From Tetmemena sp. SeJ-2015 (taxonomy: Eukaryota; Ciliophora; Spirotrichea; Sporadotrichida; Oxytrichidae), in assembly GCA_027382625.1 (NCBI GenBank), contig JAJKFJ010020810.1, forward strand, positions 1 to 64,000: DNA of 64,000 nt, written 5' to 3'. Under the pieces are notes generated by a model, which saw only the letters and a list, made by a program, of their open reading frames with translations, had not been told where the DNA came from and ran no database searches. Below are positions 1-64,000 of this stretch, one piece after another; within the stretch, counting starts at the first letter, position 1, and every line of letters starts with the position of its first letter. Made by a program: the position numbers and the translations under genes.

Positions 1-862
1 CCAGACCCGCCAAAATTTCCCACCGGGAGGGGTTCGTGTTTTTTAAGTTTATCTTTTATTTTAAAATTTAAACTAAAACCGGGTTTAAAATTCGTCGGGA
101 CATGCCCAAAGTTAAATCAAAGAAAACCCATTTTATAGTCAGCGATCCAATTTAATTTGACAATGTCAATTTAAAATTTGGGCTCATCTATTTTTACCCC
201 AGCAAGTCTTTTTTAGCTATCTCATTGTATTTCTACCGAACGAGTCATAATTTTAGCCAACTCTACTTTATTTTAGCTAGCTCACTCTAAAACTGACGAT
301 CTCACTGGATTTTCAGCTAGCGAGGTCCAGAACTAGCGATCGATTCCGGGGATAATTTAAACCCTTGCCTGATTGCTTTTAATTTAATTTTTGACTATCA
401 CCCTGATTCTTACAATAATAAAAATTGAATGATATTCAACAATCTGAATATAATTTTAATATGTTTAGTTCTTTATCTATTTCATAAATCATTTAGAAAT
501 AGGAATTTAAATTTTAATAAAAATTTTTAGATCCTGTCGTATTTTACTTAAATTACTATATATAAAAACTTGTTTAAATTAAAGCTATTTTAGTCGAGAG
601 ATTTTAAAGATATTTTTTTTAATCTATCAAATAAATGATCTAGATAAAAAAAATAACTGTGCCAAAGCATAAATTAATATTATTTTAGAACTACTCTCTA
701 AAAAGGGATTTATTCTTAATATATAAATAAATTGAATTAATCATAAAATCTGTATAATTTAAATTTAAAATATATTAACTTATAAATGCAGAAGAGCGAG
801 TGAAAATAAAGTGATATAAATATTGTAAAGATAAATGCAAATTTTAGATTATAAATCTTGTA
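1..862. other. Non-coding left edge with degenerate repeats
   Basis: No convincing reading frame on either strand. Bases 211-350 hold several imperfect copies of a motif resembling TTTTAGCTAnCTCA, spaced roughly 20-40 bases apart and richer in GC than the flanks. The rest is AT-rich. It may be germline-limited sequence beyond the first macronuclear-destined segment, but that is inference. Confidence 0.4.
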
Positions 863-1860
863 ATGAAACTCGGATTGAAAGAGAGATCAAAGAGCGGCAA
901 GGCAACAGACAAGAATCAGGTTCTCCAAGATATCCAACAGCAGTATACCTTTGAAATAGAATAATAGGACCTCATCATTAAGAAAGCTACACAGCAAAAT
1001 GAAGACATTAATTATTTAAGAGATGGAGAGGGAATTCGAGAGCTAGAAAGAAAACTTAACTCGACTAAAGACCTCACTAGAAGACAAAGAGAGATTCCTT
1101 AAAGAGCTGGAATCAAACACTTAGCAAGAATTGGAAGAGATAGAGTTTTAGATTGAAGCACAGCAAAAGGCAACTGACAAGTCTTTTTAAAAAAACTGCT
1201 TATATAAGTTAAAGCTGTAGATAAGTTCAGAGACTATTGACTTAAGGGCTAAAGAGGCTGAAGAGAGAATTCTAGCTGAGGAAGTAGAGGGTTATCGAGT
1301 GTAGTTGAAGCAAGCATAAGATCTATTCGAGTAGAGAAACGGCGAGCTTCAGTAAAATAAAATCAGATTCTAGACTGCAGTTGATGACCTAAAGAAGAAG
1401 AACCCCTCAGTTTCAAACAATTTCTCCGGCTTTTAGGAAGACTCTATGAGGAAGACTCACAAAGTTGGCATAGAAGGAAGACACAATAACAATAACATAC
1501 CATACATGATAGATCTCAGTAAAGACGACTAACAAAACTTATCTAATGATAAGGAACATTAAACTATTTTACTCATTATAAGGATATTGTACCACAATCA
1601 TCTCCCCAAACTACAAAAAAGAAATATTTGGGCAAGGAATCGGCGGAATTTTAAGATAGGTACGCTACAGTGCCTGGTGGGACATTAAGCTATTACCAAT
1701 CTATAGTAAATTTAAATATAAATCTAATGAAACGAATGGAATCTTGCAAAATTCAATCGCAAGGAGGTCTATAAAGAGCAGAGCAACAGCAAAGAGCAGG
1801 CCTATGGAATAACAAAAAGCTTGTTATTTATTTTGCTGCACTGGCTGCTCTATTATTTGA
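863..1860 (+). CDS. Coiled-coil protein with C-terminal CaaX box, two IESs
   Basis: Unrecognised protein, mostly charged coiled coil (Glu/Lys/Gln-rich), with in-frame TAA/TAG read as Gln. A one-base frame change lies near 1022, probably an assembly error. Two short direct-repeat-flanked inserts (1556-1577 and 1704-1720) interrupt it. Only after both are removed does the frame reach a TGA at 1858-1860, giving a tail that ends CCTGCSII. Cys-Ser-Ile-Ile is a plausible prenylation (CaaX) site, and the nearby cysteines could be palmitoylated. Membrane anchoring of a coiled-coil protein is therefore inferred. The gene converges on the next one with about 110 bases between stops. The start at 863 is the first ATG before the coiled coil. 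Confidence 0.65.
1556..1577 (+). other. IES, pointer ATAAGGA
   Basis: The 7-base repeat ATAAGGA lies at 1549-1555 and 1578-1584. Removing one copy plus the 22-base AT-rich interior joins NDK to DIVPQSS in frame. No GT-AG boundary gives the same join. Confidence 0.85.
1704..1720 (+). other. IES, pointer AATCTA
   Basis: AATCTA occurs at 1698-1703 and 1721-1726. Precise removal moves the reading into the frame that ends in the CaaX tail. The interior is 17 bases, almost all A/T. Confidence 0.75.
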
Positions 1861-1972
1861 GAGCGAGAAGTTATCTCAAATCCATTCATCATCAATATAC
1901 CCACACCTCTATCAGATATTTTATTAACCAAAAGAATTTCATGATTTTATAAATCTATATATATTGCTCACT

Positions 1973-3436
1973 TCAATTTCCTACTTAGTAAAGAATAAAT
2001 TATAATTCATATTTCTCTAGTCTTATTTATTAGAAATTAAATGTCTATAAAGAATACGTTAAAGGTTTTATTTGGATCGTTTTATAACTATCACATAGCT
2101 CTTTTGAAATAAAGAATTTTGATTCCAGCGCCTCTTCTCCTTCTTTGGGAACTAGCTTCTCCTCTACTCTTTTCTCCAGTGCTTGCAAGTCAGCTTGCTC
2201 GTAGTGCTCACGATAATCCTTATCAAACTGTAATCTCTTAACTCTACGCACGATATCGCTTTGCAGATTTTCTCTCTCGACTTGTTCCCACCTGTCTCTG
2301 TAATCTCTAACTGTTCTCAGAGCAAACTTCTTCTCTTCCTCTGTGAATTCTCTGTCCTGCCCCATAGTAAATAGCACAAAAGTATTTAGAAAAGTGTTGA
2401 GACATACTACAAACTGAATCTTGCGAGTGATGTAAGGCTGTGGCTTGATATCTTCCCACTGTCTCTCCTCGTGCTTAAATTCGTTTCCTTCGTTCTCAGC
2501 CTCTGCTCTCTCTTCCTCTAACTTTTCGTAGTAAAGTCGCTTCTCTTCATCCTGCTCCTTCTGCTTGTTCTTTACTTCGATGTAGTCTTGAACTGCAGCA
2601 GCCAGTGAATCTTCAAAGAGACAGCTCTCATACTCAAGTCTTATTGCCAAGTATGAACCAAGCTTGGGCACTTTGAAGAAGTGCATGCGTGGTTCTCTCA
2701 CCACCTCCTTCACATACACGAAGCGAGGTAGTACTTCCTCATTAGCCTTTGCTCTAAGTCTTGCCTGCTGCTCTTCATATCCTTCCTCTCCTTCTTCAAG
2801 AATTCTTTCTTCCTACTGCACTTCCTCATCCTTGAAAACATCAAAAGTAAGTCCTTGCTCTTGCTCTAAGGTCTTGTCTACTATATGCTCATGGCCTTTT
2901 GTTGAATGAATGAAGTGAATTATTGGGTTTCTAGAAGGATCTTCATGGGCCTGGTCATCATCGTCGTCTGCAATAGTTCTCTTGGGTTATACTAGCTTGC
3001 CGAGATACACGGCGGTTGCATTGCTGCGTGATTTAAGGAAATCAGCCAAGTCTTGGAGTTGATCGTTGAGGTCTGTACTGAAATTGATCTTGTCCCAAAA
3101 TGCTCTTGTAGCTAAGTCCTCATGTTCCTATTCCTTGCGACGGTGCTCTTGCTCAGTGCGTTGCACTGATTCTTGATACTCCAGCTTTTCCTTGAGCTCT
3201 CTGACTCTTCCTAAATGCTCTTCTCCCTGCACCACATGCTTCTCCACTTGGGAGTAGTTTAAAAGCCACTTGGCTAAGAAGTCAACTGGGTTCTTAGGCT
3301 GTGTCTTATACATCACTGCAAGTCCTTTGGCAACGACAACTCCAATATCCTCTTTCTTGATGTAAGCAGCATCAGGGTGGTCTTTCTCTCTCTTTTGGGC
3401 TCTGCGCTCCTCCTTAGCAGAATTGGAAACCGACAT
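1973..3436 (-). CDS. Radial spoke protein 2-like (DPY-30 motif plus GAF-like region)
   Basis: One uninterrupted frame of 487 residues with Gln encoded partly by TAA/TAG. The N-terminal 60-70 residues carry a DPY-30 dimerisation motif (NPVDFLAKWLLNYSQ). A GAF-like region follows around residues 105-140 (KINFSTDLNDQLQDLADF, then NATAVYLGKL). The C-terminal half is charged and largely coiled coil. This order matches radial spoke protein 2 of motile cilia, which binds other spoke proteins through the DPY-30 docking helix; the match is by recognition, not alignment. It is shorter than Chlamydomonas RSP2. No IES was found, so the whole frame would be one macronuclear-destined segment. The start ATG at 3434-3436 directly precedes the conserved N-terminus. 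Confidence 0.75.
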
Positions 3437-3623
3437 TTAAATATAATTAATTTATAATTATTAATTCTTAATTAAGAAAGTGCTCCTCCACTATTCCCCA
3501 CTAGCTATAACTTCTTAAATTTAAATTAATATTGTTCACTATGAATGGATTGTAGTGATGATTTCTTTAAGATTTGGGGAATAATTCAGTTTGGATTTCT
3601 TAAATTAAATTATAAGAGTTGAA

Positions 3624-4418
3624 ATGGCAAAAACAGCAGCCAATTCAAAGAACGCCCTCAACCTAGAGCTCTCTTACCAAGTGCCCGCCTAAAATGGTGG
3701 CTTCATAATTGCCGACCCTCTGAAGTTCTGTTTGCGATTCAGACCGACCTACTATCTGCCATAGTGTACTAGGTGGAGCACAAGCAAAAGGGAACCCGCA
3801 AATACGTGCACGAAATTAGAGTGGACTTGAGAGAGAACTGCGACCTAGATTCAGTCTGTGAAGATCTCTTCCATAAGGAAAGTACTTATTTCAATCCTCA
3901 CAAAATAAGCAGACAATAGGTAAGTCAACTATTTATTTCATCCTTCTCCTTAAAGCTAAAGCATTAGATGGAGAAGGTTTAAAAATTTGGCTTTCCAGTT
4001 TTAAACGATAATACTGGAGATGTTAATGATGATTTGATTTTAGGTGCTTGATCTTATTACAAAGCTCTACAAGTAAATATACCAGAAAGGAGGGGACAAG
4101 GAAAATCTACATTTATTATTATACTTATTGTTTAATGCAGGTGCACCTGGATAATAAAAAGCGGCTGAAACAGTAAAACCAGCTGATGACAAGAAGAGAT
4201 TCGGCCTCGATTTCAATGATAGCGACGATGATAATGATGCAGCAGACTTGGCCAAAAGCATATAACCAGCTAAGAACGAAACCAATAAAAATGATAACAA
4301 ATTTATAAATAAACACTAATAATGCAAAATAGAAATATTATTCCTCTTATTATGTTAAATATATTTCCAAATGATAGTACTCGTCTAATTCTCTCAAAAG
4401 AATAAGTTTATATAATGA
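3624..4418 (+). CDS. Unrecognised protein with one intron
   Basis: The N-terminal part reads as a globular domain (VLFAIQTDLLSAIVYQ, then KYVHEIRVDLRENCDLDS). A one-base frame change near 3725 must be corrected to read it through. A GT-AG intron at 3920-4043 joins SRQQ to VLDLITKLYK in frame. The C-terminal part is short, acidic and Lys-rich, and its last 40 or so codons look like untranslated sequence, so the stop at 4416-4418 is uncertain. I do not recognise the family. It converges on the next gene with only about 27 bases between stops. Confidence 0.55.
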
Positions 4419-4445
4419 ATGGTTAGTCATTTTTTATGATTTTTT

Positions 4446-6649
4446 TCATTGGTTGATTGAACTTGTGACTGGCGCATTAAATTTTTTGCGAGTGATGACC
4501 TGACCCATTGGCCTCGCAAACATCTTTTTGCAGAGCCAGTCTTGCACATCGAACTAGGATTGGTTCTGAATAATTGCAGCCACATCTGATGCCAGGAATT
4601 CCCCCATCTCTCTTTATACATCCACGTACTCATATAGATTCAAATGACTACTTCTGTTGCCAGTTAAATTTGTCGTATTTGCAACTAAGATCTGCTAGTT
4701 ATAGTTTGATCCACTCTTCTAAATAAAAATCTTAGAAGGACTTTTGTTATTAGAAGGAGAGGAATTATTGGAATAGTTGGATTAGGTTTTACAGCCAAGG
4801 AATCCCTTAAGCACAAAGAATCGATGACTGCAAAAGTAATTTAACTGGGGACAAGGAACTTCATTCCAAAGATTATATTATAAGCATTAGATAAATGATT
4901 TATTAGAAAGAGTACGCTGAGTCATTTGTTGATCTGTAAATGGGGACACTTTCATAATCTCATCAGTCGTCATGCTCACCTTATCTCCTAAATATTTCTT
5001 TCGATATTGTAGAATGAAGCTATTATTCAAAGACTCGTTTGCTCCAAGCATGGACTAAAAACTAAACATTCCGAAGATTTGAGGATACATCTCTTCAAAA
5101 GAGTTCGGCTAAGCATTCAAAAAGAAAAATGCAAATATTCTCAAAGTCTGTTAAGGCTTTGATTTTCTTATTTACAATAGAGAACTTTCTTCTCTCTGAT
5201 CTCTCAAATAAATACTCCTACACCAACTCGTGCTTAAATATCTGAGTCTGTAAATTTTTATTTTCTACTACAAGCAAGTTTGACAAGTCTTAAAATATCT
5301 ATAAATAAGATAATATATAGTCTTTGCTTAACCCCTGATGCTTTTATTCTTTAGATTCCTGAATCTAGTAAAATATCTCTAGGAAATTAAGTTTGAGTTA
5401 ATCAATTAGGTGCGACTGATTTGCAGCTTGCTATTTTTAAATATGTGCTTTGGCCTTCTTCTTTATGCTACCATTAAAATATTTTAATTGTGTCGCTTAG
5501 ATAAGTTCTCACTATTTTCGATGGAAGTACTCAGCATAGACTTATTAAGTCTGGCTTTTCCCTTATCGTGCTTGATAACATTCAAGTTATCATCCCACAG
5601 ATCTATCTACTCTCTTTACTTCTATCTGTTGGGGTGATACTGACTTGGCGCGGGTAGTCTGTCGGTTGTTTGACTTTCCTCACTTACTTCAGAAGATTCG
5701 GCAAACTCTTCTTCCTAGTCGCGTAGGTAGCTTCTATCATTACTTCTTTCATATTCAATTTTAAGATTCTAAGATGGACTGCTTAGATTATTAACTTGGC
5801 TTGCTTATTTATGCTTGATCTGATTATAGTGGCGCATGCCTTCTATGCTTTTAGTAATAGCCTAAAAGTTGCAGTTGTTGCTCTCCAGATTTATGTGAGG
5901 AACTAGCAGAGTCACAGGGTTTACTTTGTTGCTAGATTTAGAGGAAGAATAACAAATATAAGCTTTAATAAAAATCCACTGGCTTAAGAGTTAATCCACT
6001 GCAACCTTCTCTACATAAAATTTGAGACACTAATTCTCTAAAGTTAATGACTTACTTACAGCAATATGGTGGAGAGCTTACTCTTTTCAAGGGAGGGTTC
6101 AACCCAAACGAATATGCTGCACTCTCTCCTCTGAAGTCCCTTTCAAACTCGTTCTTATCGAATATTTCTTTTGAGTAGCTCCCAACTATCATAAATAAAT
6201 AATGATGACTATGACATTTATCATAACATTAGAGATAATCTTCTCTTCATCATCAACGTCAAAATCTTCAAATATTTGCTGATATCGAAACCACTTATCC
6301 TTTGTCTTCCCAAGATGCTTCTATAAAATAAATAAATACTTTTCTATCTTAGTGTATATATTGCATCCACTGGGCATCCTTGATGCTTTTCGATGTAAGT
6401 TGCTATCACTTTTGCCCTTTTAGTTACATAAGGCATTACTATTACTACTTGGCACCACGAGTAAAGCCTGCGAAGTCCGTTTAATGTCCCGTACCTCAAT
6501 CTGAGATTATTGTAACTTGCTGAATAACTAGTATCACCCATAACTCCATCATAGTAAATGATGATTATGTTTTTATCTTTCATTCTCTCTCTTCTTCGAA
6601 AGACTAGCCTTTTAGAGATGCCGTATTTTTCAGACGTTCGAGGAGCCAT
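4446..6649 (-). CDS. Unrecognised large protein, two IESs and one short intron
   Basis: Reads on the minus strand from ATG at 6647-6649 to TGA at 4446-4448. The N-terminus has a beta-strand-like stretch followed by acidic residues (KNIIIIYYDG), loosely like a phosphatase fold, but the catalytic motif is not convincing and no function is assigned. Two IESs (6195-6218 and 6325-6341) and a 22-base GT-AG intron near 6040-6061 must be removed. Two one-base shifts remain, one in a T homopolymer near 5090. The middle is Ser/Gln/Asn-rich. The C-terminal 80 residues (EFLASDVAAIIQNQS, CKKMFARPMGQVITRKKF) look globular and conserved. Confidence 0.65.
6195..6218 (-). other. IES, pointer TATCATAA
   Basis: TATCATAA occurs at 6187-6194 and 6219-6226. 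Excision joins SNVM to IVGSYSKEIF in frame on the minus strand and removes an in-frame TGA. No intron boundary fits. Confidence 0.85.
6325..6341 (-). other. IES, pointer TTCTAT
   Basis: TTCTAT occurs at 6319-6324 and 6342-6347. Removal of 23 bases restores the minus frame from DAIYTLRQ into KHLGKTKDKW. Confidence 0.8.
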
Positions 6650-6738
6650 TTATTTCTCGTTTGTAGGAATTCTGCGAGACAGCAAGCTCTTTTTACTGAT
6701 TTAAATCATTGGACTGTTTAAACTAGTCACGTTCATTA

Positions 6739-9700
6739 TCAAAATATTAAAATGAGTCTTGTTCTTAATATAGATTAAAATTAAGATACAAATAGAACTA
6801 TATTTAAGTGCTCATTTTAGATTAATTTTGTCAAAAAGTTGTATTAAAATCTTTAGCAACCTAATTTTTATAACTTAATTAGAAAACTGATTTAATATAA
6901 AGAATTATTTAACATGATATCACTTTCTTATTCAATTTAAATTAGATTTATAGCAGCTTTATTAGGAGAAATTGAAGATGTATTTTATTAGACTGATGCT
7001 TGTGATTACACGTGAGAAGTTCCTATCTTAGAAATACTGAGCACGCTTTGTTTGAAATTAGTAAGCATTTAATTTCTTGCATCAGCCTTATTTGGAGCCA
7101 TGTTCATGTTTATTAGAACCTCAGCCTTAGAATTTATAGGTATACTTGCGGCATGTTTTTAGATGGCTGATGTTTGGCGCTCTTTTTTCATCATAATTAA
7201 TTTTAAAACCTTGAAATCAAGTATATTGGGTGTGTTAGGAGTTAGATTTATGCTTTGCTAAACTTCGAGAAGATTTTTATTGGCTCCATATATTTTATCT
7301 GGTCTTAGCATTGGAGTTATTGAAAACTTATCCTCTATCAACATCAAATTTTTGGGGATGGCCTTGACTTAAAGTAATCTGGATTAGGGCTATGAATGGT
7401 TCTAAATAAAGTATAAGTTTTGTGGCTAGTGGCCTTTCTTTGCTATTTTGATACTATTTTACTGGACTAGTTGAATACTTTATCTTGGTTGTTGAGAGTT
7501 TGCAACCACCTCTTGTGTCTTATTGGAGGAGAGCTCACTAACTTTAAACTGACTCTTTTTCAGCGGAGAGGGAGAACACTTTTCTACTAAATCCTCTTCC
7601 TCTATATCTGCTTATTCCATTCTCTTTAAATTAAAACTTTATTGGCGAAGTAGAGGAGATGTCCTTGTTACTTAACTCGATATAATAAAATAACCTTTTA
7701 GTTCATTATTCTATTTTGACTAGTGACTTTTATATCTCTCTGCACAGATCCTTAATCTGAAGAGCCAGAGGAGGGCTACATTTTCACACCAATCAAATTA
7801 AATTAAAAATTAGAGAGAGTAGACTTAGAGATTTCTCTAGAGTCCTAGTTTACTTCTACTTTGGCTAGGATGATTCAGGAGTCATACTTCTGAGATATAG
7901 GCTGTGGAATTCGAATATTAAATAATTTATAATCTTAAAAATATCTTGGCGGTCTGGTGCAGAGAAAGATCCAGAATTGGGAACTGCTTGTATTTAATTT
8001 GGAAATATCATATTTTTGTTCTTTTCTTAAATATTTTCTTCCAGAGGTCTTTCATTTTAAAAATCCTGCTGCTGCTCATAAAAAGTTTCAGCTTTTATAT
8101 CCAAGTAGGGTGTCTCAAAATATGTAATGCAGTAAATTTATTTTCTCTTGCTGCTGTGAATCTTATAAGTCTAACTTTAAAATGGAAGCTATGAAGAAAA
8201 AAATTAATGTGGGAATTAGTTAGAGGGACCTCACCCTAGTATATGAACTAGGAAGTATCATCATACTGATCTTAGTTATCCTTAAATGAAAGAGCGATTT
8301 AATTATTTCTCTAGTTCCTCTGTGAAGTCTAATTCCTGACTTCGTTATTTATAAAAATTGAGAATAAAAAATGCTCTCATTTGACATAGAGACTTCAGAG
8401 TATGTTTAGGCCAATTAAGCAGAATTGTCGCTTGAAAAAATGTTTCTTCGCAAGTATTTAGCTTTTCTACTTTAACTTTCATTTACTTGAGGAGACTAGT
8501 GAGCAGATAGTAGTGGTTGCATATTAAGAAGCTAGTACAAATTTTGTGCTGCAGATCTCTTACCATCAAGTTATTGCTCCTAACTTATAGTAGTCTTAGT
8601 TGAATGAGCAGATTTTACAGCTAAGTCAGGCAATTATAGTCTTAAGGAGTCTATTACAGTTGGTCCACCCTAGTTAATATTCGCGATTGTAACTTATTCT
8701 GAGAATTTAGAATTATGTTTCAATTTGTTCATTGGTATATTAGAGGGTGTATTTTAATTACTTTAAGTGGCGACTTATTTATTTACTCCTGAATAATTTG
8801 TGGTAATGTAATAACTTTCTAACTTTGCTTTAAAATTTAAACTAAAATTGCACTCTTCCTTCCTTAATTACTTTAGATTTTGTTATCAAACTCTTGCTAA
8901 GCATTTTAGTACTGATTCATATCTTGCAGAATGTGCTAAAATTTTTGAACAGCGCCATTATACTTATTTTAAGCAGATATGTCTGATTTCCTATTTGCTT
9001 AAGTAGGCTAGATTTTTTTATTTTCAGTTTGTATTTTTGTCCCACTTTCTAAATTCGTTAAAAATGATTCCATTGAAGGTTAAGTCTCCTCAATCTGATC
9101 AAGTTACTTTTGTTTCGCTGAGTTTTAAGTGTGGATTGGAATAGGCTTTAAATTAAATGAAGATTGCTTTTGAGTCTCTTTGAGTAGGATAATGTTTTGC
9201 TCAAGAGCACTTGCTCCTTAATTAAAAATTAAAATGAAGAGGTAACCTTAGTTCTCATAGTTGTTTTACTTTCCAAGTTTAGTTGTTTTGGATCTAAGTT
9301 TCAAATGCTTTTTTCTTAAGACTCCTTGCAATTCACTCATCATAGTATTTTCATTCAATATTGCTGCGTTTTTTGTTGGACTTTGAGAATTTCCCTCGAT
9401 GGATAAAAATAGAAGATTACTATTTTTGAGCTCTTGAAATTTGTGAGATTTCTGGTTAGTTAGATTTGATAAGCATTCCTTCAGCCATTATTCTATTGAC
9501 AGCACTTGCTATCCCATTGCTTTAATTCTCAATTATTAGACATGATGAGGAGTTGTCTTAGCGACTGTAAAACTAGCTTTTGGCAATTTTCTTGCTTGGT
9601 GAATTATTGGCTATTAAATTCGCAGGGACGTTTGAAAGAAATCTGCGGATATGTTAGGGTTGAGTGTAGAAATTATTTGTAGTTTATCCTTACTGAACTG

Positions 9701-11765: not shown

Positions 11766-11897
11766 ATAATAATTTTTGTTGTTGGGGATGAATTCAAATT
11801 CAAATTATGTGTTGGTTGTTGATTGCTTGGGTGAGCTGCCTTATTTTATAATCATAAGAATAATAAAAGATCATCATCATTAGACAAAACTTCAAAA

Positions 11898-14687: not shown

Positions 14688-15153
14688 AGAGCCAATAATG
14701 CTATTATTTTACTCATAGGAAGTGTTTAATGATTTTAAAATGTGGATAAAGAATATGCATAAAAAACTTCGAAATGTATTTAAATTCTTTTCTTTTATTA
14801 AGTTTATCGTATATTTCTCTCAATATAATGGTCTTTTAAGATTTAATAACAAAATTATTTGCTACATTTTTATATTTTAAAATGTTTTTAAATGATTTAA
14901 AAATGTTTTAAAAATAATTAGAGATTGCTTAAATAAAGCTCTCTGAAAAAAATAATCTTATTAAATTTTACTCTGAAATGAAAGTGATTGCTTCCTTATT
15001 AAATTATAAATAAAATTTAATGTATATTTGTGAGGAATAAGTTATTGAATTGCTTTATTTTTTGTGTTTAATGTGTTTTATATTTTTTAATTTGATTGAT
15101 TGCACTCTGTTCTTTCATAATTTTCTTTAAAATTATAAATATAAATTTTGAAA

Positions 15154-19572: not shown

Positions 19573-19666
19573 TCAAGCCCCAGTTCTCTAAGTTTATTTA
19601 ATTACTCATATCTTAAATCAGGAATTCTAGCATAAGAAGCAATAAATATTCCAACTACGATAAAAT

Positions 19667-42956: not shown

Positions 42957-43169
42957 CAAAGTCGAAAAGAGATTATTATCGGACTATTATTTAATTATCG
43001 CTTTATGCATAATCCACAATTAATAAAGAAAGTGAGATAAGATACTGAGATATTTGAAATATAAGTGAAAGATCTATTGCGATAGCATATACTGTTTTGC
43101 ACTTCCATAAATACTACTTTGCATACATCATCATACAATGCTAGTTTTGACATTCGATTCATACTGTTG

Positions 43170-45077: not shown

Positions 45078-46202
45078 ATGACTGCCGGAAAGAACCCAAG
45101 AAACTTCAAGAAGAAGGGCCAAAAGAAGAAGGTGTAAGTGCTTTGCGTTGTGCTGCGTTTGCGGCTAGAAAGAATTTTGAGTTTTGATTGTGATTTGTAG
45201 CGTGCACGCTTTCGCCAAGAAGGAGTGGTACAATGTCCACGTTCCCACTGTCTTCGACACCCGCGTTCCCACCATCACTCCCTGCAACAGAACCGCTGGT
45301 CAGAGTAAGTACAGCTACCCCTTCTTCCGCCCTCAATTGCTCATTGAGCCCTGAGTAGCCAAATTTAACCTTGCTTGTGTTTAGAGATCGCCGCCGACAG
45401 CTTGAAAGGTCGTGTGTTCGAGGTATCCTTGGCCGATTTGAACAGAGAGAACGACCAAGCCTGGAGAAAGATGAAGGTCCAGATCGAAGAGGTCAAGGGC
45501 TTCGACTGCTACACTAACTTCTACGGAATGGACATCACCAGAGACAAGCTCTGCACCATCGTCAAGAAGTGGCACACCACCGTTGAGGCTTTCGTTCAGA
45601 CCAAGACTGCTGACGGATATCTCCTCAGAATGTTCGCCATTGGCTTCACTCAGAGAACAAGAAGACAAGTTAGAGCCACCTGCTACGCAAAGGGCTCTCA
45701 GAGAGCACTCATCCGCAAGAAGATGATGGAAATCATGATCCAGCACGCCCAGAAGTCCACCCTCAAGGAACTCACCAAGGAATTGTAAGCCAACGATTGC
45801 GCTTTTCGCTCTTTTTCTCTTTCCTTTCTCTCTTTGCCTATTTATTAATTATATCTTAAATATAGATAGAGAGTACTGAATGCCATTTTGTATATCTTTT
45901 AGCGTTTCCGATGCTATTGGTAATGACATCAAGAAGCAGTCAATTGAATTATCCTATAGAGTTAATTCATTAGTGGATTAATGTTGAGTGCAGCAAGATC
46001 TTCCCCCTCCAGAACTTATGCTAATAAATGATGCATTCTATGTTTAGTGAACGTGCTTGTGAGAAAGGTCAAGCTTCTCAAGAAGCCCAAGTTCGATCTA
46101 ACCAAGCTCATGGAGCTCTATCAGGACAAGCCCGAGCTCGAGATCAAGGGCAAGAAGGCCGAGGGACAAGAGCCCAAGAACAAGCTCACCGGAAAGCAAT
46201 GA
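45078..46202 (+). CDS. RPS3A: Ribosomal protein eS1 (RPS3A), three introns and two IESs
   Basis: Small-subunit ribosomal protein eS1: MTAGKNPRNFKKKGQKKK, KKEWYNVHVPTVFDTR, FYGMDITRDKLCTIVKKWH, FTQRTRRQVRATCYAKGSQ, KIFPLQNVLVRKVKLLKKPKF after excision, ending KNKLTGKQ at TGA 46200-46202. GT-AG introns at 45134-45200, 45305-45384 and 45785-45902. Two further interruptions (45948-45983, 46016-46048) have 4-base pointers and no intron ends, so they are IESs. Exons are clearly GC-richer and codon-biased compared with neighbours, using C-ending codons and almost no TAA/TAG Gln, as expected for a very highly expressed gene. Confidence 0.95.
45948..45983 (+). other. IES, pointer TTGA
   Basis: TTGA at 45944-45947 and 45984-45987. 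Excision joins DIKKQSI to ECSKIFPLQN in frame and removes a TGA. Confidence 0.88.
46016..46048 (+). other. IES, pointer GAAC
   Basis: GAAC at 46012-46015 and 46049-46052. Excision joins IFPLQN to VLVRKVKLLKKPKF, the conserved eS1 sequence. Confidence 0.9.
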
Positions 46203-54115: not shown

Positions 54116-55691
54116 TCATGCTATAGAATTAATTATAATAATTAGATTCCTTACGAGTATATGCTCAAGCAACAGTTTGTTTCTTCTCATGATTCCATCC
54201 TTTTGATACTTTGTTTTTAAGTCTCTCATGCTATCAAACGTTATTCTATAATATATATTGTTACCTTGGATTGTGGCCCTCTATCTCACTCAGTAGAGCA
54301 AGCTAGCAGTCTTTAGGTGGCTCTTTACAACTTGGAGGTTGAATTTCGTAAGCTTTTAAAAGTATAAATATGAATGCTATCCTTATGTTTTGTTGGTTGA
54401 TGTAATTTCGTATTAGCTATAGCAATAAATAATAATATACAGCTTCTTTGGATTAGTACTCGTTTGATGGCATTAGAGCAACTAACTAGAATGGATACTT
54501 TGCTGAGACCTCCTTATTACCATACTGCTTTAAGGTCTTGAAGGTCTCTTGCTCGATCCCTAATTCGAATGGGCCCCACTTCCTCTTAATCCTTCATTCT
54601 TTCCAGTCAAGTTACCCTCTCCAGACTTTCTTAAGTCTTTTTGATGCTCTTTTTAATTTGACTTGAGAAGTTTTAATCATTTGCTGCAATTTACTGATGA
54701 CTAGCAGCCAAATAAGCAAGTTAGGAGAGATTTGTGTAGTTTGGAGCTAAATCCTTTATAACTGTTGCTGAAGTATTGGCTGACACAGAAGAACACTTAT
54801 ACTTCTAGTAGCCTCCTTAATTCTAACTCTATCTTAGAAGTAAATTGTTCATTGGGGCTAGCTTGGGTATATTGAAGTTCTAAACAAACGGCTCTGGCCT
54901 TCCTGACATCGGACTGTACATTATATAAAGCATTGCGAGTATAAGAAGTATCAATAATATACCAAATTAATGCTTTACTTGATCGGTGAAGTAGAATTAG
55001 AGTTTTACTGCTCTATTTAGTTTCTGGAAAGGCCTAACCTCTGCATGTTCTGCTTCATACTTAAATTAAAACTAAGACCGCCTGTGGTTCTATGAGCGCT
55101 CTGAACTCTTTGCCTGGATCTCTCGGGTTTGCTAAGAGTGCCAAAACTGAGATCTTGCTAGCTCTATTGGTTATAATCCTCCAATCTTATTGGACTTTAG
55201 CCACTTGGTGAAATTGAAGTTTCCTTCCTGACGCTATTCCCTAGCTCAAATTTTGAAACTGACTTTGGCTGACCTTGCTTCTTAGCTTGATCAGGTGTAT
55301 AAGACAAGTCTAATTTGATATCTCCAGTTGAGTTAAGCTCACTTGCTGCTAAAATTTCATGTGCCAGTCCTTGTGAAGAATTGAGAATATCAAACCTCTT
55401 GGTTTAAGCTAGAGACTAGAACTTCTAATTTTAATCTAGCTGAGTTTCTTAAAATTCATAGTTCTCTAATTTACCGTTCATGCTCTCGATTAAAGAAGAA
55501 AACATTGATTAAATTAAGATAATGAACTCTTCCAAAGTGTAGTTTGGATTTATTATTTTAACTTCAATGATTGCTTGGATAAAGTTCCTGAGTCCTTCGT
55601 CTGTAAAGTGACTTATTTACTCTAGAGAGAAGAATTCTTTCAGGAACTTGAAAATATACTCATGAGAACTTCGAGGATCATTAACCATCAT
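54116..55691 (-). CDS. Unrecognised protein with helical N-terminus
   Basis: MMVNDPRSSHEYIFKFLKEF then FTDEGLRNFIQAIIEVKI gives a folded N-terminal region. The middle is Ser/Gln-rich (DLSFGTLSKPERSRQR, HRTTGGLSFNLS). Near 54550 comes RIKRKWGPFELGIEQETFK, a pattern of a short conserved motif with W. A 19-base GT-AG intron near 54244-54262 joins EIEGHNPR to ITFDSMRDLKTKYQKDG. TGA at 54116-54118 ends this frame, but protein-like sequence continues below it, so the 3' end is uncertain. No family assigned. Confidence 0.5.
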
Positions 55692-55830
55692 TTATAAATA
55701 AAACATATAGTTTTTCAAAATTAAATTTAGAGATTAAACTTTTAAAGGTTATTCATTCATAAATTTTACATGCAAAATATTTTTATAGTCAAAAAATATA
55801 TGATTACTGTATGCTTTAAGTAATTTAATA

Positions 55831-56436
55831 TCAAATAAATTTTACGAGACGAGACATAAATAAGAAAAAGTAGAGTATTATATAAATATAACCAATAGAT
55901 GTCTGAGTTTGAGAATTTAGGTATTGCATTTTGTAGTACCTAGCTTCCTCAGATTTATTTTTGAAGACCGCTCCATACTTAAATGAAAGAGGTTTTACAA
56001 AAGCCTTGGAGACAGTTCCAAAAGCTACTCTATTTAAATTAGTAGGGAAGCAAGCATCTATTGAAGAATACTTCTGAAGGCTTCGCTTAGTTTTACAAAA
56101 TATTTATGCAATTAATACGCAAAGTTTTGTTTCTAGTTTCACTTGCTAGCTCATCTCTGACTTTGCTTTTAGCATTTGTGTTGCTTATTACGCCTTTAAA
56201 GTCTGATTTTCCTCTAAATTCAGGCAAATATTTAGAGCTTTCTAGTAATTGATTCATGCTAGTAATGTCTGCACCAGCCGTAGCAGGTCTCTTAATGTAG
56301 TCAATCAGATTTAATAACCCTATACTAGTATTAAACTAATTATAATATTGTCTTCATCTATTGAATGCTCCTCTACATTGTTTTCATAACTATTCTTTGC
56401 TACTTCTGCTTCAATCGGCTACTTTAAGTTATCCAT
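55831..56436 (-). CDS. Unrecognised small protein, one IES
   Basis: MDNLKQPIEAEVAKNSYENN, then after the IES at 56333-56345 NTSIGLLNLIDYIKRPATAG. A frame change near 56095 leads to NLNRVAFGTVSKAFVKPLSF and a final hydrophobic segment before TGA 55831-55833. About 195 residues. Starts only about 45 bases from the stop of the upstream TPR gene on the same strand. Confidence 0.6.
56333..56345 (-). other. IES, pointer TATT
   Basis: TATT at 56329-56332 and 56346-56349. Excision joins SIDEDN to TSIGLLNLIDYIK in frame on the minus strand and removes a TGA. Confidence 0.8.
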
Positions 56437-56481
56437 ATAGGAGACAGATAAAATTAATGAGAGTTGAAATTAATAAAAAAA

Positions 56482-59024
56482 TCATTTCTTTTTCTTGCAC
56501 CCATCGAAATAAAAACTATAATTATATTTTAAATAAGAGCACATGTCAAATCTAATATAGAAGTATAGTCCCACCATCAGTAAGAACAGCATCAGATTAA
56601 ATGAAATCTGCCATTTACTGTCTCCCAGAAGCCAATTTACTGTGCTTGTGATCGGACCCTTCTCCTCTTGCCATTCTCCGCTTTTCTTCTTTCTCTTCTT
56701 TTCTTTCTCATCTTCTTTATCAATTAGTTCCATCGAGTAGTTTAGTAAGTCTATATTCAAAATTATAAAGAAACACATTCATCATTTTAGCATTCTAGAA
56801 TTCCTCATAAGCTAGTCTTTCTCTTATCTCATTAGCTATTGGAATGATGAATTCATTTTGCTTCATAAGCTCAACCAAAATGAAATAATAATCAAAGAGC
56901 TAAAAATGACCAAGTCTTAGGGAAGCTCTTTTTGTACTTCAGAATCGAGATCGCGGAAATTAAGGACCTCCAGCAGATATCTCATTTCATTAAATGTAGG
57001 TGCAAATTTTTGATACTCTTAGATAACTTTCACACACTCCACTGGCTGCTAACTCTCTCTAAAGTACTCTAGCACATCAAAGTATTTCTTGTTCATTCTA
57101 AATTAAGTTTTAAACTTCTACTGTAAATTTAGTACTTACTTTGAAACTAGTCTAAAGTTAGAGTGAGAAGTTTTGCAGTCATAGGCTTTTTCCTTCACGA
57201 TCTGTCCTCTGCTGCTCCTCAGCTCATATATCTTTTTTGCCCTATTTAAAATCTTCTCTACTGTTTATACATCTTTCTTTATTCTGTTTTTCAACTGAGG
57301 AATTAAAAACTATAGAAAAAAGCATGAGTATCTAATAACTCAAGCACTTTATGAATCTTCTGGATTTCCTTTTGAGTATAACCTTGCACGTAAGTTTGGA
57401 CTAGCTTCAACCCATTAAAATTAATAAGTAATTTATTCGCTACCTCTTCTATAGTGTCTCTTATTTCTTTATAGTCTGCATTTAGGTTGTAATAGGTGCT
57501 TAATCCATTAAAGAGTAGCACAGAGGATACTCTGGCTTCAACTACTTTATGTAATTAGCTACCTTCTTATAAACATTATATATCACACAATTATTTTTCT
57601 TTGCTTGCTTGAAGTGGTAGAGCTTCATATAACAGACAAAAGCATTCTAGAGCAAGTTAATAACCAAAGAATCCACTATAAAGTTTAAAGCAAAAGAAGC
57701 TTACAGTTTTCTTTTTCTAAAAGAGGATCTTCATCACCCTGCTAGGCTTTAAACATATTGAAAACTCTCTCATCAGTTATCCTTACTGGTTCCTTCCCAA
57801 ACATAGTGAAGGACACTTTCTTCTTCTCACTTATCTCTCCTGATACCTAACTCTCATGCCTCAACTCAAGCCAGTTATAAAGACATAGGGCCTGCTCATA
57901 GAAATCCAAAGCCAAATAGAAGTTATTCTTTTGATAGGCATCGTTCCCCATAGTTTTAATTTCATCAGAAAAGAAGAACAACTCACTTGAATCTGCCTGC
58001 CTATATTTATCGAATTTGGGATTGCTGTGGAATAAAGTTTGAAGTAAGACGCTGGATATTGCCGAATTTTTGATTAGTCTAAAAATATTATAAGAGAGAA
58101 AATCAATCTTTCTTTATCTGTTCCTTGGTAAAAACTATTTTCTTTCCCAGCTTTCTAGTAGAGGGAAGACTATCTTCATTTTAATCACCCTCTGCTTCTG
58201 TAGACCTGCTTTCAATTTAAGCTTGTAAATCATCATTGAACAAATCTTTAAAAATGAAATGTTGATAAGTTAGATATCTTCGTTTTGGTCTAAGTGTTAT
58301 TCTAATATGGAGTTAGTTATGAAAGGAATAGCATACTAGCTTGTTTAAACTTCTTCTAGAACTTGTTAACTTTCTCGTGGCTTTTTAATTCTTCCTTGAG
58401 ATGAGCATCTACCATATCTTCCTTGCAAAGGTTCTCTCTAAAGCATAATTGTCTGGTTAAAAAATAGGCTTACATGTTTCTTTGAATATTTTCTTAATTT
58501 TCCTGTAACTCAGAATTTGCGCTAGGTCGAACTTTATCCTCTACTTTGGTTAAGTTGATCGCACTTACATTAAGAAGTTCTGTTAATTGGATTTTAATCG
58601 CTGGACTCAGACTTGTCTTCTGGGTATTCAAAAAAGGTTCTGATGTTGAGGAAGTGAGAGTACTTAGACTTGTACTTTATGTTGCTTCCAACCTCAAAGA
58701 AGTCCAAACCAGGATCAGTGTGCTCTATACAATAAAATATTGAATGTAATTAATTCTTACTAGAAGAAATAAATGGGCAAGCACCCGCGCCTCCTGCTGC
58801 CAAAGCATTTGCTTGTTAGGTAGAATAGGATTTCGGCTCTTCAGTGTCAATATTTTCCTCATTCAGTTTCATAACTGGGCATAGTTCTTAGGCCTAAGTG
58901 CCTTGAGTTAAAATAAATTGGTTTCATCCTTTTGGACAAAGTTTTTGTAGTACTGTTCTAGTTCTGCCCTTTTCTCGTCGGGTAATCTAGAGAGTAGGTC
59001 CTTATTTACAAATGGACAGCTCAT
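56482..59024 (-). CDS. TPR protein with N-terminal Cys-Pro motifs and C-terminal hydrophobic anchor
   Basis: Opens MSCPFVNKDLLSRLPDEKR. After an interruption the N-terminal part continues QELCPVMKLNEENID and AGGAGACPFISSSK: three Cys-Pro motifs like heme regulatory motifs. A TPR-like helix pair follows (KTMGNDAYQKNNFYLALDFY, EQALCLYNWLEL), then helical sequence (EIRDTIEEVANKLLINF, YFDVLEYFRES). Near the C-terminus is a single hydrophobic helix (WQISFNLMLFLLMVGLYFYI) before a basic end and TGA 56482-56484, suggesting a tail anchor. Many frame changes (about 58900, 58740, 58420, 58100, 57680, 57120) indicate IESs or introns I could not place exactly. The family is not assigned; a co-chaperone-like adaptor is inferred from the TPR. 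Confidence 0.65.
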
Positions 59025-59197
59025 TAGTCTATTCTTTTATCAAAAGAAATTCAAAAATTATAAAGTTTATATTTTCTAAAATGCCTCTGCGAATTCTTAT
59101 GATAATCTTCATATTTTTAGTGAAAAAATAATTTAGGATAAAATACTGCACATAACATAGTTTTTAACTTGTATTAAGATCCCTTTGACCTACTGTT

Positions 59198-59800
59198 TCA
59201 TTCGCTATCACTAGAACTGCTATCTCCATGCTCCTTTGAAGTGTATTCTTTTACGCAAGCTTTGCAAACAAAGAAAGCACAGTCCTTGCAAATCCATTTC
59301 TTTATCCCCATGCCTGGCAGGAAGTTGGGTGTCTCACTTTTACATCCTTACTCCGTGAATTAACTCGAACAGCTCCATGGAAAAATAAACTCAATGGTTC
59401 TAGGAAATTCTTTCTGCGATGAAGAGTGTGCTCAGAATGTATGCTGAGTTTGACCTTTTTGTGTTTTTTGCATTTGCTGTTAGATTATAATAAATTGATA
59501 TGTCTAGATTAAAGTGCTCTTTTCTTGGAGGGAGACATGGATTATCCGTTTTGAATGACAGCTCCCAGTTGTTATTGATCTTTAAGCTTTGCCTTTGAAA
59601 TGGCTGCCCTTTGATCGTTTGACTCTTCCTCACTCTCTGAATCATTATTTTAGCTTGAAAGCACTCCATTTAAAATAGGATATGAGAATAAATCCATTGG
59701 TATGTTTGCTGGGTGAATTTCTATCTTGGTGACTGACTTGCTAGCTTGTGGCTTCGGACACTATATTATGCTCTTTTATTTATTCTCCTTAGTTAGTCAT
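59198..59800 (-). CDS. Cys-rich protein with short acidic repeats, one IES
   Basis: MTNQGEQIKEHNIVSEATSQ starts the frame. After the IES at 59647-59694 it reads SKHTNDSESEEESNDQRAA, then Lys-rich (KCKKHKKVKLS), then a cysteine-rich C-terminal block. That block is SCSSQFTEQGCKSETP and KKWICKDCAFFVCKACVKEY, with CxxC and CxxC spacings that suggest a zinc ribbon or RING-like fold. It ends DSSSSDSE at TGA 59198-59200. About 180 residues. One or two one-base shifts near 59480-59500. Family unknown. Confidence 0.65.
59647..59694 (-). other. IES, pointer CATT
   Basis: CATT at 59643-59646 and 59695-59698. Excision joins SPSKHTN to DSESEEESNDQ in frame on the minus strand and removes a TGA. Confidence 0.8.
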
Positions 59801-60345
59801 AGTGGCAGATTTAGTGATAGTGGTGGAGCCATTTAGTTGCTTCACTGAACTCTTTAAGTTTTATTCAGACATGCATGCTCCCATTCCTATTATCCAAACC
59901 TATTATAAACTAATTAAAATTTTATCAATCTTAAACTTCAACATTCCCAGTATCTAGAAAAGTGCTTTATCTTACAAATTAAAATGATATTTTATTTCTA
60001 TGCAAAATACAAATTTAAAGGCATTAGAATTTTGAAACTACAAACTTTCTAATTTATTTTAATATTCTCTTATAAAGTTAATTTTAAGTGAGGCTGATTT
60101 TATCAAGGAGTGGCGATAGTGGTTTTTAAAAAAATAATGCTTCTTTTTCTTTAAAAATATTTTAAGCAAATGCTGAGTATAAAAAGAAGAAACTTATATT
60201 ATCCCATTCATAAAATACACTCTATATTTAAATATAGCATTATATTTGATAATACTATTAATAATATAAATTATAAATACAACTCTACTACTCCCTAATC
60301 TAAACCCTCCGAATAATCATTCGCGACCTAAATCCAATATAAATA
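59801..60345. other. AT-rich intergenic spacer
   Basis: Divergent spacer between two genes. No frames; long A/T runs around 60170-60290. No telomeric repeat or RNA gene seen. Confidence 0.45.
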
Positions 60346-61689
60346 ATGGAAGTATAATACACCCAGTACGCCGATAATCAAGTTCTTTCTCACTTCAAGA
60401 ATTCTGTTAACTCTCTATCATTTAATTATTATCAAGCCCGGAAACATCTATCTACGGTATCTCTCCCCTACACGTCATCAAGCTAAAACAATAGACCTCA
60501 AATTCTCTCCTGAAGATAAAATTATAATACTTATATAATCATCATAATCATTTGATAGTTATTTAAAGAGTGAAGTTTCAACTCAAAAATCGTCGCCTGT
60601 TAGTCTGTCACCCTTATCATGTCAATCAAGCCAAAACAGTGAAGATAAGGCATCTCTATTTTCTAGTAGTTTAAAATTGAATCGAATACTTAATTGAGTA
60701 ACGATGAACAGGATTTCTCAGTTGAGACTTCAGGGGCTTCCTGCTCGAGGTAGCTAAAGTTCTTGTATGAGGCTGAAGAGGAAATGGCCTCGATTTGGTA
60801 ACCCAAGAAATAAATTAAAGTCACCAAGCCAAAAATCATTCAAGGCTCATAAAAGTCGGTGGTCCCCCACTCAGCATCAGGATTTAATAGAAGCTCTCCC
60901 CAGCCCACTCTCAATGGATTCAACCAGCAGAACTTCTCTATTCCCGACAGATTGCAAATTTCTAAAGAAAGAAGCTGGTCCGAGGAGAAACTGATACCTG
61001 AAAGACCAGCTAACCCTATGTTCACAGATAAATTCTACAATCTTAAAAATCATATGCCTTATTTTTAATGATAATGTTATATTTTGCGAGTGAATGGAAA
61101 TTTATAGTTTACGCAGGGTTCTAACTTTTCAACTCCAGAATCCAACTTCTCTGCTAATAACTTCACCCAATACTAAATGTATTAATAACTCTCCTCTGTG
61201 TGCTTAAATTTTATATCTGAGTTTGACAAGATGACAATAACTGAGAGCTAAATTAATAACAATCATTAACTGCCTGCTGGCAATTCTCTCCCTGCTTTTC
61301 ATTCAATTCTCATCAATTATTTGATCATCTTATTTTTCACTCTGATAAGGGAAAAAATAACTAATCTCAGAGTTCCTTCTCTTGTGCTTCCTCTCTTTAG
61401 AGTTAGGAGGTGCAGGAAGTTATATTCTTCATTTATTTTTGAAGATAAGGATTCCATGATGGGCGGCTCTGTTAACTACATTCAAGGATTTTAATAATTT
61501 AATGGCTGGGAGACTACCCCATAGAATCCATTTTACTACAATTCGATTGGCTTTTAATGCCCCCAATATCCCCAACAGCCATGGACTTCCTACCAACAAG
61601 CTTCTCCACAGCACCATTATCAAATGTTCACTAGTCTAAATCCAATTGGTTTCACCCAAGACACCATTCAAAGCATTCAAAATTACTGA
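60346..61689 (+). CDS. Gln/Asn/Pro/Ser-rich protein
   Basis: MEVQYTQYADNQVLSHFKNS opens. A break near 60510-60570 leads to SEVSTQKSSPVSLSPLSCQS, another near 60695 to SNDEQDFSVETSGASCS, and one at 61070-61108 to GSNFSTPESNFSANNFTQYQ. The middle has EEEMASIWQPKKQIKVTKP and MFTDKFYNLKNHMPYF. The end is aromatic and Gln/Pro-rich (QCPQYPQQPWTSYQQASP) to TGA 61687-61689. An AT-rich, hydrophobic-coding stretch at 61280-61440 is probably an IES. No domain recognised; the composition is like prion-like RNA-binding or transcription regulators. Confidence 0.55.
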
Positions 61690-62395
61690 AGAATCCAACT
61701 TGTTAATTATTCCCCTATTCAATGCAAAAATAAATATGATAGGGTTTGTTCGTATTACATGAATTGAGTATATTGGATCTCAAGCCAAATGATATATAAT
61801 GTATGAATCAGTGACTATAATAATAAGAGATAATTAATCTATGATCTACACCTCTATAAGCAGATGACCTTAGCAATAAATAAAATCTACCTTGGTTGTA
61901 AGAATACATTATTCATCCTATAAAATAAATAAAATTCAACTCTTACTCATTTTCTCCCCACTATATTTTGCAATCGGAAAAAGGAAGTGACTCATGGACA
62001 GCGTTAGATAATTAATAATTGTATTATAATGCGTTAAGTTGCCTAATTCTCTTGACCTGAAGTGGCGAGAAACTTAAAAGTCAAGAGTGAGGTAGCCTAA
62101 GCTGTTCTAGATAGAGTGATTGAGGAGGGCTTTTTAGCACCACCAATATGGGGCTAAACACAGACCTCTTCAATCTAAGTTTAGCATTTAAATAAGTTAT
62201 TTCCCGGTTCGAAGTGCAATATAAATAGCAAGATATTAATCGGAGTGCACGATAAATCCAAGCGCACAACCCAAATATAAATATTGACATATAAGAGACT
62301 TATATTAATTAACATAAAATTAACACCCTAAATTATAGCGAAAAAATAACTCCTATCAGGATTTTTTAAGGGAAATATCCTAAATCAAATATAAA
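61690..62395. other. Mostly non-coding spacer
   Basis: Mixed composition with no frame I trust. A 69-codon minus reading at 62081-62290 (MSIFIFGLCAWIYRALR) has neither neighbours in frame nor coding bias and was not annotated. Confidence 0.35.
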
Positions 62396-64000
62396 ATGGA
62401 AAGTTTGATTGATGATATAATCAAGAAAGTCCCGATTCAATACCTCCTATAGATTCAGGCACAAGTTACTTCTCATAATTTACTTACCTTTCCGGCTAAA
62501 TTAGGTAAGACTTTCAATGAATTTTAAACTTAGCTAATATATAGATGGAGAAAATGATACACCATCCGCGGATTAAAACTTGCAAGAATACGAGAAGCTA
62601 TTAATCATGGTTTATCAAATTGTTATTGGCATCACGATTATACTAGCGTTTTTCAATATCTACTTAATTATAAAAACCAGGAAATGCGGAAACATTCCAC
62701 TTATTTTCCTGTACATCTTTTCGATAACAACTCTTCTAATAGTGCGTGATCGAATTTAATTGTGGAAGTGGATAAATTCAATGCAAGCTTTAAAATTATT
62801 AGCTGACTCATTTAGATTATAGGGCAGTTGCAAAACTCTAAATTTTTTGTCAAGTGAAGCTTCCTACCTCGTTTGCACAAGTTCAACCTCCTCAAAGCAG
62901 TTGTGTAGCTTAAGTTGAACTATCATGTTGAATGTGACACCTCTGTGAATTTGAGCACTGGATGATAATTGCAGAGTAGAGTTCCATATCTGCGGTAGGA
63001 GGACGAGAAGTGCTGCAATGTGAAGTCGAATGTCCTCTCTCAACTTAAAGGGCTTTTTCTGACTATGATTTTGGTCTTTAATTCAGGAAGCCGCTCTCGG
63101 TGAAAGGTATCATGGTGATGTCTGGAATGAAGTAACGTTACTATGGCTAGGCAAGTAGAGAGCATTATAGTTTGTCAAATTCTCTTCAGTTTATTGCTCT
63201 AGGTTGTCAATTTAGAAGAGACTCTACCATTATAATTAGTTAGAATTAAGTTATATTATGTATGATTAACCCCTCATAACAATAGATCATGAACTATAAG
63301 TAAGTATCTCATAGAAGTTAAACTGCTTTCTTAACTTAATTTAGGCTTAATGGTTTTATTTGTGGCTATATTTTACGTTGACGAGATAAAATGCTGCCTT
63401 TATAATATTTTCCGATACTATTTTTAAAAAATATTTTGAGATTAAATTACTACCCTGCCCTAGTGTTTCCTTTCACTGCGATGACTTATATTCTAAATGT
63501 GTAAGCCAAATCCAAGTTTAATTGGGCTATTATAGAATGAAAATGATTTTTCGAAAAGGAGTGACATTCTTCAAAACTCAAACACGGAAAATAGTTAGCA
63601 GGGTGTTTATCTACATCATCCTAGTTGCAATTTAGTTTTTTATTTCTGGTCAAGTGATTGCAGATGCAGTCAATAAGTATCAAAACGGATGCTCTACAAC
63701 AGATACTCTCTGCAACTTTTCAAAGTAAAAATCTCTCTATCTTAGAACAATTTAGGGAACCAGAGAGGGAATTCTCGATATACCTATCCACTTTCATTTT
63801 GATGACTTATACTCATTGGCTGCAGTTCCTCTACTTCAGAGAGAAAATGAATGACAGAAAAAGAATAATGAAGTCCACAAGAAAGAACCCTTTTAGCGTT
63901 TATTTTTAAAAAGAGGAGGACCTTCTTCACAACTTTATAAATTTTAACTCTGTCATTTTCGATAAGCTTGCTGTATAGAGCGATTTACAATTTGATTAAA
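62396..64000 (+). CDS. Multi-pass membrane protein, runs off the right edge
   Basis: MESLIDDIIKKVPIQYLLQI is followed by a 40-base GT-AG intron (about 62504-62543) and DGENDTPSADQNLQEYEKLL. Helices then include MVYQIVIGITIILAFFNIYL and IPLIFLYIFSITTLLIV. After an ambiguous middle (62760-63340) come LMVLFVAIFYV, YYPALVFPFTAMTYILNV, SRVFIYIILVAIQFFISG and FSIYLSTFILMTYTHWLQFL, then a basic tail still open at base 64000. Six to seven helices fit a receptor-like membrane protein; no family named. Frame changes near 63410, 63500 and 63720 imply further IESs. Confidence 0.6.

Follow-up and report, generated by a model that had tools for sequence, protein, structure and literature searches.

Pointer-flanked interruptions and a scrambled WDR17 gene point to hypotrich germline DNA in a 64-kb contig stretch

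The stretch analysed here, bases 1-64000 of contig C1890 (the window; its own assembly comprises 146 Mb in 5213 contigs), almost certainly stems from the micronucleus (the germline nucleus) of a hypotrich ciliate, with genes laid out as macronucleus-destined segments (MDSs), internally eliminated sequences (IESs) and short direct repeats termed pointers. This reading, which an original prediction had already put forward, is supported by the genetic code, an excess of pointers, AT-rich inserts, C4A4 repeats at contig ends of the assembly and, chiefly, by a scrambled WDR17 gene. The scrambled gene is the decisive evidence, and it was absent from that prediction.

Results

The WDR17 gene is scrambled

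WDR17 was modelled on two templates, a 1276-aa protein listed solely as eukprot:403373336, which from its number we take to be an Oxytricha protein, and a Stylonychia protein of 1283 aa encoded on a 4160-bp contig. The two templates are 62.9% identical to each other. The gene and the elements involved in its scrambling are as follows.

15154-19569, + strand: WDR17 gene, 18 coding segments, scrambled; TGA stop at 19570
15892-15902, + strand: pointer ATCCGAATGAA, copy 1, at the end of segment A
16045-16055, + strand: pointer ATCCGAATGAA, copy 2, at the start of segment B
15921-16001, + strand: displaced segment C, residues ~255-280, starting with CTTCAACAA and ending with AGGTAGGCTCTA; its proper place is between 16255 and 16283
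16247-16255, + strand: pointer CTTCAACAA, at the end of segment B
16283-16294, + strand: pointer AGGTAGGCTCTA, at the start of segment D

Segment C sits inside a 153-bp interruption (15892-16044), upstream of residues 198-254 (16045-16255), and the residues that follow it resume from 16283. The germline order of the pieces in the window is A-C-B1-B2-D. Template residues 255-280 align to 15923-16000 with 85% identity (E 1.4e-9), and the Stylonychia protein aligns to segment C, too (74%, E 5e-9). When C was placed between B and D, the 18 segments gave 3825 bases in a single open frame of 1275 aa, which is 67.6% identical to eukprot:403373336 along its full length and 59.2% identical to the Stylonychia protein. 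Because the order of the pieces is changed, cis-splicing of RNA cannot repair the gene.

The scrambling pointers of this one locus are long, 11 bp at the A/B join and 9 and 12 bp at the ends of C, where the other copies of CTTCAACAA and AGGTAGGCTCTA start at 15921 and 15990, respectively. For random position pairs within WDR17, the chance of runs of at least 9, 11 and 12 bp is 8e-5, 1e-5 and 3e-6, and a simple composition model puts the joint chance of the three pointers at ~1e-15. Pointers in WDR17 are further supported by a repeat-blind alignment, in which 6 of 15 WDR17 excisions landed on repeats of 4-11 bp; the identical six were obtained with the second homologue. A 27-bp IES between B2 and D is bounded by the two pointers of segment C. 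Such a pointer-sharing arrangement corresponds to the exchanged MDS/IES pairs described in PMC9797194. An origin of segment C by duplication, with the 27-bp IES as its decayed copy, found no support (likeness to C of 10, against 14.3 ± 2.6 for shuffles).

Genetic code and gene content

The window has 34% GC. With TGA read as the only stop, the top 15 open reading frames span 338-641 codons, compared to 103-255 with the standard code. Gln was the residue opposite TAA in 38/64 aligned columns of the seven gene models and opposite TAG in 26/47, about as frequently as opposite CAA (48/86) and CAG (32/53). TGA directly follows the end of WDR17, lies one codon past the aligned part of V-ATPase c, and closes the ABC ATPase frame five codons past its aligned part. 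Long frames and column counts together bear out the predicted code: UAA and UAG encode Gln and UGA is the stop in the genes of the window.

Pfam scans, which covered part of the window's frames, detected WD40, Dcc1, RNase HII, kinesin, V-ATPase c, GPx, ABC, kinase, Dpy-30 and S3Ae domains, and a PDCD5-type domain slightly below the cut-off. Several of these domains are divided among two or three reading frames. A GST gene had also been predicted; no Pfam match to it was found in the subset of frames scanned. The Dcc1 frame had no match in PDB, and searches for tRNAs and Rfam families gave none in the window, where tandem repeats are sparse. Besides the WDR17 proteins, the templates were a Stylonychia kinesin (1169 aa, encoded on a 3807-bp contig), a 332-aa ABC protein from a JGI metagenome, and PDB chains for V-ATPase c, RNase H2A, GPx and RPS3A. 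Both Stylonychia proteins, encoded without interruption on their 4160- and 3807-bp contigs, are the nearest proxies for macronuclear versions of the two genes.

Most interruptions are not introns

In spliced alignments, excision was permitted at direct repeats of at least 2 bp or at GT-AG ends. This yielded 46 interruptions in seven genes: 16 in WDR17, 19 in kinesin, four in RPS3A, two each in the ABC ATPase, RNase H2A and GPx, and one in V-ATPase c. These are the genes, apart from GST, that had been named as interrupted, and in each the alignment spans the interruptions. No GT-AG form yielding the identical product exists for 38 of the 46, in agreement with the earlier claim that most cannot be spliced as GT-AG introns; one of these (18886-18957) also has a GT-AG placement that scores nearly equal. 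Such a form does exist for the other eight. Four are plain introns running from GTAAGT or GTAAGC to TTTAG (15169-15266, 19292-19319, 45305-45384 and 45785-45902), a further three are likely to be introns (19421-19452, 30673-30739 and 30840-30887), and the eighth, near 34773 in kinesin, is doubtful as an intron. Ordinary introns are a minority of the interruptions. Those of WDR17 listed individually are given below.

15598-15618, + strand: IES of 21 bp, pointer TTTAGAA
15767-15793, + strand: IES of 27 bp, pointer ATTT
16141-16174, + strand: IES of 34 bp, pointer CAGCTT
17646-17666, + strand: IES of 21 bp, pointer ATTT
17925-17941, + strand: IES of 17 bp, pointer GAAT
18069-18082, + strand: IES of 14 bp, pointer GAAT
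18886-18957, + strand: interruption of 72 bp, pointer TCTTA, flanks not firm, GT-AG alternative nearly equal
15169-15266, + strand: GT-AG intron of 98 bp, GTAAGT to TTTTTAG
19292-19319, + strand: GT-AG intron of 28 bp, GTAAGT to TTTAG
19421-19452, + strand: likely GT-AG intron of 32 bp, alternatively pointer AGG

Composition was determined for 22 IESs picked by hand for usable boundaries (11 from WDR17, six from kinesin, two each from the ABC ATPase and RPS3A, one from V-ATPase c); two interruptions in WDR17 (153 bp and 9 bp), ten in kinesin and those in RNase H2A and GPx were excluded. The picked IESs have a median length of 25.5 bp (range 13-72) and 18.8% GC, compared to 31.7% in five introns and 38.5% in WDR17 coding sequence. 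Interruption lengths fall into all three classes modulo 3. Coding segments are separated by short AT-rich sequences, which would be eliminated from the DNA.

Pointers occur above chance

Each junction was allowed every length-preserving placement scoring no more than 3 units below the optimum, and the longest repeat was compared to 400 shuffles of the insert. The test covered 41 of the 42 linear junctions in the six genes other than RPS3A. Since the junctions were taken from a repeat-favouring alignment, the test is biased to that extent. A junction was called firm when at least 5 of 10 residues were identical on each side, which held for 22 of the 41. Over these 22, the repeats sum to 85 bp, against 53.2 ± 5.1 bp in the shuffles (maximum of 400: 70; z 6.2). 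The 19 firm junctions without a GT-AG form reached 78 against 47.7 ± 4.8, and the three with such a form 7 against 5.5 ± 2.1. The null mean per junction is 1.1-3.8 bp. Taken singly, repeats of 2-4 bp therefore carry little weight, being near chance given the boundary uncertainty, and only the sum is significant. This qualifies the predicted exact repeats of 2-9 bases, a range that also misses the pointers of 11 and 12 bp. In the whole window, 46 direct repeats of at least 11 bp at a spacing of 12-400 bp were counted; local shuffling of two-base blocks, which does not keep codon periodicity, gave 16.8 ± 3.6 (20 shuffles).

In a second test, run on five genes, the right ends of all candidate excisions were shifted randomly to obtain decoys (12 for WDR17 and 60 each for V-ATPase c, RNase H2A, GPx and the ABC ATPase at repeats of at least 2 bp). 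WDR17 was clear in both settings, with 4240 against 4135.8 ± 18.4 (maximum 4162) at 2 bp or more and 4219 against 4029.6 ± 38.7 (maximum 4110, 20 decoys) at 4 bp or more. V-ATPase c exceeded all decoys in the former setting (468 against 454.8 ± 4.8, maximum 460) and GPx in the latter (271 against 233.2 ± 12.6, maximum 260). RNase H2A and the ABC ATPase did so in neither. Variable-length pointers above chance are thus found in the sum over the 22 firm junctions and in WDR17, not in the ABC ATPase alone.

Evidence against the germline reading and alternative explanations

Several observations weigh against a germline origin. In the setting of at least 2 bp, the best decoy equalled or exceeded the real value for RNase H2A (525 against 518.3 ± 4.1, maximum 527), GPx (274 against 263.9 ± 7.6, maximum 275) and the ABC ATPase (1542 against 1522.3 ± 7.7, maximum 1542). 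At 4 bp or more the same was true of V-ATPase c (468 against 450.2 ± 9.1, maximum 470) and RNase H2A (525 against 511.4 ± 7.0, maximum 530), and the ABC ATPase lay at the decoy mean (1500 against 1501.5 ± 13.8, maximum 1537). Two firm junctions, near 16465 in WDR17 and 33457 in kinesin, had no repeat longer than 1 bp in the length-preserving test. Many of the 19 kinesin interruptions are uncertain because the kinesin tail is of low complexity. Finally, no macronuclear sequence or reads of the species itself were seen.

That every interruption is a spliceosomal intron, some with non-standard ends, is hardly credible. The GT-AG forms of eight interruptions, four of them plain introns, speak for it, as does the nearly equal placement of one more; they are set against 38 interruptions without a product-preserving GT-AG form and an order of WDR17 pieces beyond the reach of cis-splicing. 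Moreover, the pointer excess resides in the firm junctions without a GT-AG form (n = 19) and not in those with one (n = 3). Frames broken by assembly or long-read errors, or by pseudogene decay, would be an extremely improbable cause. At least one contig of the assembly (C1121, see below) is likely chimeric at a repeat, and no second contig covering the modelled genes was found, so that the inserts lack an independent contig check. However, at 13-153 bp each, the 22 firm interruptions are insertions and not single-base errors, and joining the segments yields a complete conserved WDR17 as well as open aligned parts of six other genes. A misjoin would not be expected to produce pointers of 9-12 bp at three joins. 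Where an allelic contig is available for comparison (54251-62739, away from the modelled genes), the two sequences are 98% identical and differ by three indels of 4-6 bp.

A germline genome of another ciliate group, of the Paramecium, Tetrahymena or Euplotes type, has very little probability. IESs occur in all three and the code is common to Paramecium and Tetrahymena, yet the closest proteins of known or inferred source are those of Oxytricha and Stylonychia, and the telomeres are of the C4A4 type.

Other interrupted genes

The aligned parts of the remaining genes and their interruptions are listed here.

30541-34939, + strand: kinesin gene, interrupted
30673-30739, + strand: probable GT-AG intron of 67 bp (kinesin)
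30840-30887, + strand: probable GT-AG intron of 48 bp (kinesin)
31041-31061, + strand: IES of 21 bp, pointer ATTT (kinesin)
31262-31290, + strand: IES of 29 bp, pointer TATG (kinesin)
31664-31676, + strand: IES of 13 bp, pointer ATT (kinesin)
31884-31911, + strand: IES of 28 bp, pointer AAG (kinesin)
34377-34399, + strand: IES of 23 bp, pointer AAAGTT (kinesin)
35244-35707, + strand: V-ATPase subunit c
35400-35428, + strand: IES of 29 bp, pointer GGTATT (V-ATPase c)
45211-46121, + strand: RPS3A (eS1)
45305-45384, + strand: GT-AG intron of 80 bp (RPS3A)
45785-45902, + strand: GT-AG intron of 118 bp (RPS3A)
45938-45986, + strand: IES of 49 bp, pointer AGT (RPS3A)
46012-46048, + strand: IES of 37 bp, pointer GAAC (RPS3A)
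43188-44274, - strand: ABC ATPase
44029-44080, - strand: IES of 52 bp, pointer ATT (ABC ATPase)
43673-43720, - strand: IES of 48 bp, pointer AA (ABC ATPase)
27288-28148, - strand: RNase H2A; interruptions of 62 bp (AAAG) and 124 bp (TAGTT), boundaries not firm
21828-22292, - strand: glutathione peroxidase (GPx); interruptions of 23 bp (GCAA) and 67 bp (CT), boundaries not firm

The insert in V-ATPase c carries GT after one base and AG at its end. Intron-style removal would take out 28 bp and break the frame; removal at the GGTATT pointer takes out 29 bp and restores the sequence MAGILGIYG. The ABC ATPase is 93% identical to the JGI metagenome protein (on a contig of ~3 kb), which is nearer than any named ciliate among the 120 matches listed. 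From this likeness, a near relative of the source organism seems to have been sampled in that metagenome. A relative of the ABC ATPase was also sought in viral contigs, with none found.

Repeats, alleles and telomeres in the assembly

Two dispersed repeats lie near the ends of the window.

62740-63296, strand not assigned: dispersed element of 557 bp, flanked by TAA, missing from the allelic contig C5060
61-422, strand not assigned: dispersed repeat, frequent at contig ends

The 557-bp element has imperfect inverted ends (TAGTGCGTGATC and TAGTTCATGATC), is heterozygous, and occurs in many full or partial copies of 66-99% identity. Contig C5060 is 98.0% identical to the window over 54251-62739 and 96.2% over 63297-64000. 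It covers none of the modelled genes and differs from the window, besides the element, by three indels of at least 4 bp (4-6 bp). Contig C1121 carries the element with the same right flank as the window (99.4%) and a different left flank; judged from these flanks, it is likely an assembly chimera at the repeat. Copies of the 61-422 repeat are 77-90% identical among 39 scored, with hints of an inner period of ~200 bp, and this repeat probably broke the assembly at the window start. In searches of parts of the window against the own assembly (40001-44000 not among them), no contig free of the segments turned up. All matches of 1-20000 were to this terminal repeat (39 of 252 candidates scored), a weak indication that further copies are lacking there, and 20001-40000 gave merely three short matches elsewhere. 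The DDE_3 transposase domain is abundant in the assembly: all 150 scored of 921 candidates matched, which counts in favour of the germline reading, and TBE transposons may be among them.

The assembly contains C4A4 repeats, several of which lie exactly at a contig end; the window has none. At least 11 other contigs bear a terminal C4A4 telomere of exactly 20 bases, and three of them were compared to parallel contigs. Beyond its telomere, C770 parallels C1991 at 96.5% over 11.2 kb, and C672 (4.7 kb, 93%) and C586 (5.8 kb, 94%) likewise parallel other contigs; in two of the three cases the partner (C1991, C500) extends past the telomere point. Use of the telomere-capped contigs as an internal macronuclear control was rejected, since C770 and C1991 differ like alleles and not like a processed copy and its source. 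C770 also carries an RRM gene interrupted by a GT-AG intron, which is uninformative on this question. Near 102410-102960, C1991 has ~517 bp extra relative to C770, between copies of a ~14-bp repeat (TTATCTTTTAAAAT), which may be either an IES or a polymorphism. Addition of telomeres to long germline-like molecules ahead of inner excision, or in its absence, appears unlikely; if it is real, fragmentation can precede excision in the source species.

Discussion

In the hypotrich germline reading, the genes of the window are stored as MDSs divided by short AT-rich IESs. When a new macronucleus develops, the DNA would be cut and the segments joined at the pointers, with one pointer copy retained. 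The longer pointers, 11, 9 and 12 bp in WDR17, would bring out-of-order segments into order, and the GT-AG introns of the same genes would leave later, from RNA. By analogy with Oxytricha and its relatives, this cutting is expected during development, may be guided by RNA templates and transposases, and would give rise to small telomere-capped chromosomes.

C4A4 telomeres and the code are shared with Oxytricha trifallax and Tetmemena sp. The germline genomes of these two species (PMC9797194) also have the MDS/IES/pointer layout of the window, scrambled pointers longer than the others, as in the window's WDR17, and Tc1/mariner-type transposases. At 67.6% identity to the presumed Oxytricha WDR17 and 59.2% to that of Stylonychia, the window's WDR17 protein indicates that the source species is probably not Oxytricha trifallax. 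The partial germline genomes of Halteria grandinella and Strombidium share IESs, pointers, scrambling and code with the window, whereas their assemblies have 42% and 52% GC against 34% here (PMC10901763). For kinesin, the one Halteria match listed covers 52% of the query at 45% identity and is possibly a paralogue. Germline DNA of Paramecium has short AT-rich IESs and the same code as the window. PMC9797194 gives Paramecium pointers of 2 bp only and no known scrambling; unlike these, pointers of the window reach 12 bp, and one gene is scrambled.

The MDS/IES/pointer architecture is of a textbook kind, long known from Oxytricha and its relatives. The value of the present case lies in a clean WDR17 example, in genes whose introns can be told apart from their eliminated sequences, and in a warning about repeats of 2-4 bp. 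One scrambled gene is strong evidence even without macronuclear data, and a germline nuclear genome that undergoes programmed DNA rearrangement can be recognised from raw sequence alone.

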